DNA of 64,000 bases from Desulfurococcus sp. (lineage in GTDB: Archaea; Thermoproteota; Thermoprotei_A; Sulfolobales; Desulfurococcaceae), in contig JAPNUX010000003.1 in NCBI GenBank assembly GCA_026626905.1, positions 62,001-126,000 on the forward strand, given 5' to 3'. Made by a program: the position numbers and the translations under genes. Positions 38,848 through 41,009 of the stretch are shown piece by piece (positions within the stretch are counted from its first letter, which is position 1; the number at the start of each line of letters is the position of its first letter). A model generated the notes under the pieces. It ran no database searches. It saw only the letters and a list, made by a program, of their open reading frames with translations, and was not told where the DNA came from.

Positions 38848-39976
38848 CTACCATGATATCCGTGTTCTAAGTATTCCTGCAAGCCCGTTGAATGTTTTAG
38901 TGAACCACTCGCCTTCAGGTATACTATCACTTAACACTAGTGTCCTCGCCCCCCTCCTGCCTGCTAGCTCTAGCCATTCTTCAATGTCTTCTCTAGTGTC
39001 GCTTATGAGGAGTACTGCAATCAGCCCCATTTCAAGGGCATTGCGGACTTCTTCCTCGCCGTACACTATCATTCCATCATCTTTCGCTAGATGGTACTTG
39101 AATTCCTCGAGGGTCTTTAAGGCTTCAGCGTATTCTTGTCCTACTAGTAGATCCTGGGCTTTCATGATCATTTCTCTTAACCCTGGCTCACCCTGATATG
39201 ATACATCTATGAGCTCTGGCAGCACGATCTTCTTGAGCCTGTAGTCTAAGTAGTCTTTCTCAATGAAATCGTATTTAGCGTACGCTGGCCCTCCAAGCAG
39301 GATTGCTTTAAGCTTACCTTGCTCTAGTAGAGGCAGGAAGACTTGGTTGACGTGCTCTCCTACTCTCTTATAGAAGTCTTCGACCATCTGCTCTATTATT
39401 CTATCATACCTTCTCTGGCTCTGCCCGCCTTTATGGTGTTTTCCTGGAATGTAGTCTTCGAGTTCCTCTACTACTTGGAGTATATTGCCTTTGAGTAAGC
39501 CTATTGTAGCAGCATCTCGCTCTACTAGTAGAAGCCCTATGATATTGGATTCACTGACCATCTCCTCAAGGAACTCTGTGTGGAATACCTTGTCAGTCCT
39601 GTAGAAGAATAATGGGACTTCCTCGGGGGGTATTAGCATGACTGTAATAGAGTCGCCTGTATCAGGGTTCTCGCCTGTGAATAATACTAGTCCTTTATCA
39701 GGGATCTTCGGGATCTTACTTATCCTCTCAATAGCTACTGAGAGAGCTCTCTCTACAGCACTCCTAGTCTTCTTGAGCTTAATGTTGCCTGCAACCGAGA
39801 GCTCCTGGCGTAGCAGGTTGAGTACGTCTCCAATAGGTCTCCCTGGAGGTATGTAGAGGCTTAGCAGTATCGTGGCGTGAGCCTTCCACTTCTTAAGCTC
39901 CTTGATGATCTCTCTCAGCCGCTGCTTATCAACTCTCAGGGATTCAATTTGATCCTCACTGTAGCTAAAGACTCAT
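38848..39976 (-). CDS. prf1: Peptide chain release factor aRF1, apparent +1 frameshift at codon 3
   Basis: Class-1 release factor for all three stop codons. The GGQ motif is in GKHHKGGQSQRRYDR, and the N-domain has GNIKLKKTRSA (NIKS-type stop-codon-reading loop) and LLSLYIPPGRPIGDV. In this frame there is no ATG, GTG or TTG until 39639, which would delete about 110 residues including NIKS. An ATG at 39976, with GGTGG 5 nt upstream, reads ATG AGT CTT then TAG (39967-39965) C. Slipping CTT to TTT by +1 enters the aRF1 frame at AGC (39966), giving 375 residues, the normal size. Alternatives are a one-base genome error or an ATT start. Divergent from the gene at 40068. Confidence 0.9.
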
Positions 39977-39985
39977 CCCTTCCAC
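39965..39985 (-). promoter_or_regulatory. Candidate programmed +1 frameshift site with RBS
   Basis: Read on the minus strand: GGTGG AAGGG ATG AGT CTT TAG, next base C. The slippery CTT followed by a stop and then C is the same arrangement as the bacterial RF2 site (CTT TGA C). GGTGG lies 5 nt from the ATG, the spacing seen for other genes here, which supports real initiation at this ATG rather than at a downstream codon. Confidence 0.55.
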
Positions 39986-40014
39986 CAGGATAGCACATAA
40001 TAACTTGATGGGGG

Positions 40015-40024
40015 GTTTAAATAT
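40015..40024 (-). promoter_or_regulatory. aRF1 promoter
   Basis: On the minus strand ATATTTAAAC predicts transcription from about 39993. This gives a 17-nt leader that contains the GGTGG motif and the ATG at 39976. Confidence 0.55.
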
Positions 40025-40067: not shown

Positions 40068-41009
40068 ATGGAGTCCAGGATAACTAGGAGCCTGATTGCT
40101 ACTGCTTTAATAGTGGGTGCTGTAGCACTAGCCTACGGCGTGGCTACATCCTCCCTTACTTCTCTTCTAGAGCTCTACTCCCCGGGTACTCTTCTATCCA
40201 TAGCACTGCTTACAGCCGGCTGGGCTATCTCAGCTGTAAGACTTAAGATTCTAGTCGAGTCTACTGTGAAGAGGAGGCTCCCGCTAGTAGAGTACCTGGC
40301 TGTCAGGCTTATAGGAGGCTTGATGGCTAGCCTCACGCCTTCAGCAATTGGGGGTGAGCCTGCTAGAGCATACTATGTGTCTAGGAGAACAGGGATCCCG
40401 CTCACTGAGTCGTATGCTATTGTAATCTACGAGGTCTACTATGATGTTGTAGCAGTCAGCGTTATCGCGGTATTCGCGAGCATTAAGCTACTCCCTCTCA
40501 GCACCCCTGTACTCCTGGTATCTCTTTTCTCTGCTACAGCATGGCTGTACGCTTCGATCAGAGTGTCCAGTACAGGGAGGCTGAGACACCTGGATCCAGA
40601 GCCTGAAGAAAACAAGGGCTTCCTGGGGAGGATTACAGGCCGGCTTCGTAGATACTACTTTAAGTTCGCTGAAAGCTACAGTAGGGTTGCAGCTGGCACG
40701 CCTTTAAGCGTTAAGATCGTGCTATGGCTTCTCACTCTAGTCTATAATACCCTGTGGGGGCTGGCGGTAATCCCTCTCCAGCAGCACTGTACTCTAGGAG
40801 ACATCTTGAGGAGTGTTGAAGCCTACTACCTTATGCAGTCATTCAGCATGCTGCCGACTCCAGGGGGTAGTGGTGCGGCTGAATATGCTCTCTCACTCCT
40901 ACTCGATCCATCCACAGTGTTAAAGTACAGGGTTCTATACTACTACTATAATGTGCTTCTAGGAGTAGTAGCACTATTATTATATGAGAAGCTGGCTGCC
41001 GGGGGTTGA
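40068..41009 (+). CDS. YbhN/LPG-synthase-type membrane flippase-like protein
   Basis: 313 residues with seven to eight transmembrane helices of the lysylphosphatidylglycerol synthase TM family (UPF0104). The conserved AVRLIGGLMASLTPSAIGGEPARAYYV and MLPTPGGSGAAEYAL segments are both present. Archaeal members are thought to move or anchor lipid-linked molecules, but no substrate is known. It is divergent from aRF1. Confidence 0.8.
   Translation: MESRITRSLIATALIVGAVALAYGVATSSLTSLLELYSPGTLLSIALLTAGWAISAVRLKILVESTVKRRLPLVEYLAVRLIGGLMASLTPSAIGGEPARAYYVSRRTGIPLTESYAIVIYEVYYDVVAVSVIAVFASIKLLPLSTPVLLVSLFSATAWLYASIRVSSTGRLRHLDPEPEENKGFLGRITGRLRRYYFKFAESYSRVAAGTPLSVKIVLWLLTLVYNTLWGLAVIPLQQHCTLGDILRSVEAYYLMQSFSMLPTPGGSGAAEYALSLLLDPSTVLKYRVLYYYYNVLLGVVALLLYEKLAAGG

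Follow-up and report, generated by a model that had tools for sequence, protein, structure and literature searches.

In the window, i.e., the whole analysed stretch of 64,000 nucleotides from Desulfurococcus sp., the gene prf1, which encodes the release factor aRF1, is found on the minus strand. Its coding frame extends from an AGC codon to the stop codon (38848..39966, minus strand) and displays 88% identity to its counterparts in two genomes of the same genus (G001 and G002). The encoded protein scores 423.8 bits against TIGR03676 (cut-off 234.7) and is a complete aRF1; the Pfam domains eRF1_1, eRF1_2 and eRF1_3 are all matched, and the NIKL and GGQ motifs are present in the translation. Because this is the only aRF1 of a genome that is 99.9% complete, a functional start must exist; a second match in the genome lies far under the family cut-off and is probably pelota. 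An open reading frame of 313 residues (40068-41009, plus strand) is divergent from prf1, and the two have a short intergenic promoter region in common.

An earlier, sequence-only reading of this DNA held that the aRF1 frame contains no ATG, GTG or TTG before 39639. This is confirmed: the codon at 39639 is located downstream of the conserved N-domain and NIKL, and upstream the frame is closed by a TGA (39973..39975). At 39976-39964, ATG AGT CTT TAG followed by C is read in the -1 phase of the aRF1 frame, and the minus strand between 40000 and 39940 is ...TATCCTGGTGGAAGGG ATG AGT CTT TAG C TAC AGT GAG GAT CAA.... The elements of this site, all on the minus strand, are an off-frame start codon ATG, which sets the zero frame (39974..39976), a slippery CTT T composed of codon 3 and the first base of the stop codon (39967..39970), and the zero-frame stop codon TAG (39965..39967) with C at 39964. 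The same reading placed the ATG 5 nt after a GGTGG, which is indeed found as a Shine-Dalgarno (SD)-like element at 39982..39986, and proposed that a +1 slip from CTT to TTT enters the aRF1 frame. Translation bears this out: the shifted product begins with M-S-L-S-Y-S-E-D, comprises 375 residues and ends at 38848.

A sequence or assembly error, i.e., an extra T, had been considered a serious alternative in that reading, which mentioned other indels in the window. It is refuted by independent complete genomes with the same arrangement. This arrangement is seen in two other genomes of the genus and in single-contig genomes elsewhere in the family, as well as in every Sulfolobaceae genome compared, two of which (G203 and G204) encode an aRF1 identical to the S. 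acidocaldarius sequence in the PDB; the probability of an error is practically nil.

Protein searches covered 61 genomes and then the whole order, its families, the class and the phylum, and some 200 prf1 genes were compared at their 5' ends. Each 5' end was oriented and anchored on the conserved LKKWK, and a stop codon in the -1 phase, preceded by ATG or GTG in that phase, was sought. The combination of off-frame start, slip codon and stop was found in 117 genomes belonging to 45 genera and seven families, i.e., it is conserved across the Desulfurococcaceae and well beyond, a recurrence that greatly exceeds chance. The Desulfurococcaceae (f1) carry it in 38 of 38 genomes, as RTG NNN YTT TAG C/T, and the Sulfolobaceae (f11) in 31 of 31, as ATG AGT CTT followed by TGA (29) or TAG (2); S. 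acidocaldarius prf1 is among those with ATG AGT CTT TGA, which equals the bacterial RF2 site. It is also present in all 15 genomes of f3, which we take to be the family of Ignisphaera (mostly ATG YCT ATT and then TAG, TAA or TGA), in 4 of 4 genomes of f4 (ATG AGT ATT TAG), in 25 of 30 of f2 (mostly GTG NNN NNN ATT TAG), in three of five of f5 and in one of three of f10. Because every genome of f1, f3, f4 and f11 with an examined 5' end carries the site, these families are free of case selection. Ordinary in-frame prf1 starts are found in f6 (Acidilobaceae), f7, f8 (Pyrodictiaceae) and f9 (with Fervidicoccus), and outgroups that belong to other orders and classes likewise have them. The prf1 genes of Aeropyrum and Ignicoccus start in frame, and the aRF1 of one f6 genome with an in-frame start (G069) is identical to that of Aeropyrum pernix, whose structure has been solved. 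Site-like arrangements in f6, f8 and the outgroups were rejected as chance, since the slip codon is absent or an ordinary in-frame start is present, and an internal TAG in the outgroups G222 and G243 is merely the terminal stop.

A few genomes display other arrangements. Two f2 members, G160 (L190) and G162 (L194), have no ATG, GTG or TTG near the site in the aRF1 phase or the +1-frameshift phase, and the only GTG is in the third phase. ATT TAG C is kept in G050 (L123), where ATT (or a TTG further upstream) occupies the start position, and in G062 (L237), where ATA does so; these are possible rare start codons. No in-frame start precedes the conserved core in G053 (L211), where a -1-phase GTG 11 codons upstream opens a frame that ends with GGT TGA C, possibly another frameshift type or an error; its sister G175 (L213) has an in-frame start (GTG/ATG). 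Outside the order, G215 (L231) has GTG TTG TAT ATT TAG T together with an in-frame GTG, and the site may thus be older than the order.

Among the 117 genomes, the zero-frame start codon (ATG in 90, GTG in 27) is separated from an NNT slip codon by one to four codons, and in nearly all cases by one or two. The slip codons all end with T (ATT 44, CTT 39, TTT 30, TAT 2, GTT 2); the slippery sequence YTT T is CTT T in the window and the Sulfolobaceae and TTT T in most Desulfurococcaceae, and ATT, GTT or TAT is used elsewhere. The stop codon is TAG in 85, TGA in 30 and TAA in 2 genomes, and the base after it is C in 85 of 117, i.e., not universally. The earlier description of a CTT-TAG site holds for the window, while UAG is not obligatory (TGA and TAA are found in relatives) and the site is not peculiar to this genome; within the GTDB order it is both old and widely distributed.

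In 112 of the 117 genomes, the ATG or GTG that lies nearest upstream has the phase needed for the shift, compared with 39 expected by chance. Codon choice at the site also departs from that of the rest of the gene. Where the amino acid after the slip is serine, the codon is AGY in 85 of 85 cases (AGC in 66 of these 85, against a fraction of 0.56 in the gene body), while the gene bodies contain 663 AGY and 751 TCN codons, and the overlapping phenylalanine codon is TTT in 115 of 115 cases, against 563 TTT and 970 TTC in the gene bodies. Species are not independent; in a recount by genus, TCN encodes the post-slip serine in none of the 35 genera with serine at this position. Past the first codons, synonymous-codon identity is back to background in f1. 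The aRF1 codon that overlaps the stop varies (Ser AGY, Asp GAY, Glu GAR, Asn AAT), yet the -1-phase triplet stays TAG, TGA or TAA. At the level of sequence, an amino acid that changes while the stop persists is a signature of selection for the stop.

In the aRF1 frame, ATG, GTG and TTG are absent from 60 nt upstream through to the conserved core in 62 genomes from 29 genera, and in 72 genomes a stop closes this frame no more than four codons away. An in-frame start is found at most 60 nt upstream in 23 of 117 genomes, and further genomes offer one a few codons downstream; for all of these the shift is not strictly compulsory. Taken across the lineages, the comparative evidence supports a requirement of frameshifting for aRF1 synthesis.

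Around the start, two stretches complementary to the anti-SD sequence are found in f1, f3 and f4: GGTG, whose spacing to the off-frame ATG suits initiation, and AGGGAT, which overlaps that ATG; the 16S 3' end of the window genome is GGATCACCTCCT. In the window, GGTGG is found where the duplex energy has a maximum at equal distance in f1, f3 and f4, and AGGGAT (39975..39980, minus strand), also an energy maximum, covers part of the start codon and ends 4 nt before the slip codon. In f1, f3 and f4 this second maximum lies 4-7 nt upstream of the slip codon, and it is the sole maximum in f2, where only the second stretch (GGTGAT) is present. The sequence (G)AGGG 5' of the ATG is conserved in f1, f3, f4 and f11, with a near-invariant GAT(C/T/A)AGGG immediately 5' of the ATG in f11. 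A TATA-like box, TTTAAA, is located at 40016..40021 (minus strand), about 39 nt 5' of the ATG, which is the f1 median, and this position implies a short leader. In f2 the GTG lies about 27 nt past a TATA-like box and is thus near leaderless. Both distances, to the SD and to the TATA-like box, agree with initiation at the putative off-frame RTG start. No SD-like sequence was seen 3 nt before the slip codon of the window, i.e., in the register of E. coli prfB; the sequence-only reading had placed its element 6-11 nt from CTT, and the slip codon is preceded at 6 nt by the end of GGG and at 4 nt by that of AGGGAT. A search for a downstream stimulatory RNA structure gave no predicted structure (mean z about 0). 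Among the 31 Sulfolobaceae genomes, 29 have the sequence ATGAGTCTTTGA at prf1; elsewhere it is sporadic, at approximately the rate of the reversed control.

The spacing of the SD-like stretches, 4-7 nt before the slip codon, is also that of normal initiation, as would be expected if translation of aRF1 began directly within the aRF1 frame at a codon other than the canonical starts (such as TTT, GTC or GTT near the site) and the off-frame RTG...stop were a tiny upstream open reading frame (uORF). We consider this very unlikely. The in-frame codon before TTT varies freely (GTC, GTT, GTA, CTA, GCA, GCT, ATA and others), and UUU is not known to serve as a start codon. The off-frame ATG or GTG is present at equal phase in 88 of 88 genomes of f1, f3, f4 and f11, it has its own SD in f1, f3 and f4, and the off-frame GTG of f2 is near leaderless; moreover, a uORF requires neither a T-ending codon nor a fixed +1 relation. 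Another route to an in-frame message would be transcriptional slippage on the T run, which would yield an mRNA one U shorter. Many f1 members do contain TTTTT at this position, but there are only three T (CTTT) in the window, its genus, the Thermosphaera-type genomes and all Sulfolobaceae, which is too short for known slippage, and this explanation was rejected for the CTTT sites. Such a mechanism would also need no stop codon, and overall it is scarcely credible. On the basis of these comparisons, we consider it very likely that prf1 is expressed by programmed +1 frameshifting.

The history of the site was assessed from a tree of 156 aRF1 proteins, from which the N-terminus was left out. Five changes suffice, i.e., one gain and four losses, the latter in the Pyrodictiaceae, the Fervidicoccaceae, one f2 genus and G055 of f10; the deep branches are partly supported, which makes the exact number of losses uncertain. 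Where the site was lost, the in-frame start is located at the homologous position. In G055 (L128) the gene starts in frame with TTG TCG CTC AGC (M-S-L-S), one base shorter than ATG AGT CTT T AGC, and it is a natural in-frame control that carries the N-terminus predicted for the frameshift product. G045 (L118), which also belongs to f10, has ATG AGT GTT TAG C, though GTG TTT AGC is also in frame.

Translation of the prf1 mRNA would be initiated at the ATG at 39976, which is conserved and whose use we infer. Two codons further on, the P site would carry peptidyl-tRNA on CUU and the A site the stop UAG, for which the following C makes a weak context. With plentiful aRF1, a tripeptide would be released and no aRF1 made. 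When aRF1 is scarce, the ribosome would wait and the P-site tRNA, held by a wobble pair, could re-pair one base downstream, from CUU to UUU, upon which translation in the +1 frame would yield full-length aRF1 beginning with M-S-L-S. In archaea, U-ending slip codons would be read by G34 tRNAs through a wobble pair, which would facilitate re-pairing. The +1 re-pairing is best for CUU and UUU and poor for AUU (ATT, 44 genomes) and UAU (TAT, 2 genomes), and slippage without full re-pairing may therefore be involved at the latter codons. The net effect would be negative feedback on the sole class I release factor of the cell, similar to that of bacterial RF2 and independently evolved.

This feedback is likely, judging from the logic of the site. 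The +1 shift could instead be real but constitutive, giving a fixed low output of aRF1 that is insensitive to the aRF1 level; responsiveness cannot be read from the sequence, and a start-proximal site with SD-like elements could set a fixed ratio. A fixed-ratio site would need no stop codon. The stop at prf1, however, is recognised by the very factor that the gene encodes, and it has persisted, often in a weak context, while switching between TAG, TGA and TAA, which makes a constitutive shift improbable. Frameshifting and autoregulation, taken jointly, are probable. With slightly less confidence, we also regard it as probable that most lineages of the GTDB Sulfolobales obtain their only release factor, an omnipotent one, exclusively through a +1 frameshift that senses its scarcity, with one origin and at least four losses, i.e., that the RF2 circuit has re-evolved in a non-homologous protein.

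Autoregulation of a release factor by frameshifting is the textbook bacterial case, and UAG is not read by RF2. The parallel drawn by the sequence-only reading is supported, as off-frame start, slip site and stop are kept family-wide and beyond, with the exact CTT TGA in the Sulfolobaceae. In bacterial prfB (PMC3711429; PMC12421855), as predicted for archaeal prf1, the ribosome shifts by +1 on CTT T of a release-factor gene, at an early stop codon recognised by the gene's own product; the prfB consensus is CTT TGA C, and C follows the archaeal stop in many genomes, though not in all. In contrast, the proteins are not homologous, i.e., aRF1 belongs to TIGR03676 and the Pfam eRF1 domains and shows no homology to RF2. 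Furthermore, the prfB site is found at about codon 25, while that of archaeal prf1 is at codon 3-4, right after the start; the SD-like element is 3 nt upstream in E. coli prfB and 4-6 nt in archaeal prf1; and, unlike in prfB, the stop may be TAG, TGA or TAA and the slip codon ATT, TTT, GTT or TAT. The archaeal system is an independent and old one, which would work like bacterial prfB but is outside that family (an unrelated protein, different SD spacing).

Within the eRF1/aRF1 family, recoding of a release-factor gene with proposed autoregulation was described for Mimivirus R726 and Megavirus mg280 (PMC3521657), but these genes are viral and one gene combines one frameshift with one readthrough. 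The same study from 2012 stated that aRF1 reads all three stop codons, and the occurrence of all three at the archaeal site fits a sensor with this specificity. This study, the one found to compare the domains of life, also stated that eukaryotic and archaeal homologs lack this type of autoregulation, which for archaea is contradicted by the prf1 data. In a crenarchaeal cellular gene, programmed frameshifting is known from Saccharolobus solfataricus fucA1 (PMC8211752), which encodes a sugar hydrolase; the shift there is -1, at A AAA AAT, and is accompanied by a putative stem-loop. According to this 2021 review, fucA1 was the only archaeal case of programmed ribosomal frameshifting (PRF) reported, and +1 shifts only in a haloarchaeal virus. 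An aRF1 frameshift is mentioned neither there nor in the GeneTack survey (PMC3711429), which by its own account can miss frameshifts close to a gene end, nor in the 2025 prfB survey (PMC12421855), nor in the accessible part of a 2016 review (PMC5009743). No prior report of a prf1 frameshift in archaea was found in the open-licence literature; one may exist in a subscription journal or as a database annotation.

If correct, prf1 would provide the first example of +1 PRF among the cellular genes of archaea, apparently overlooked because the site is placed at the very start of the gene, and gene starts of aRF1 in genomes of the order need to be checked. Frameshifting of a release-factor gene would be the rule in a large archaeal order, with the same site in the Sulfolobaceae and an unrelated protein, i.e., a clean case of molecular convergence. 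A natural, strongly conserved archaeal +1 site in the genetically tractable host S. acidocaldarius would offer a route to studies of termination and reading-frame maintenance on archaeal ribosomes, and the start-proximal cassette, composed of a start, one or two codons, the slip codon and a stop, would be a very compact frameshift element.
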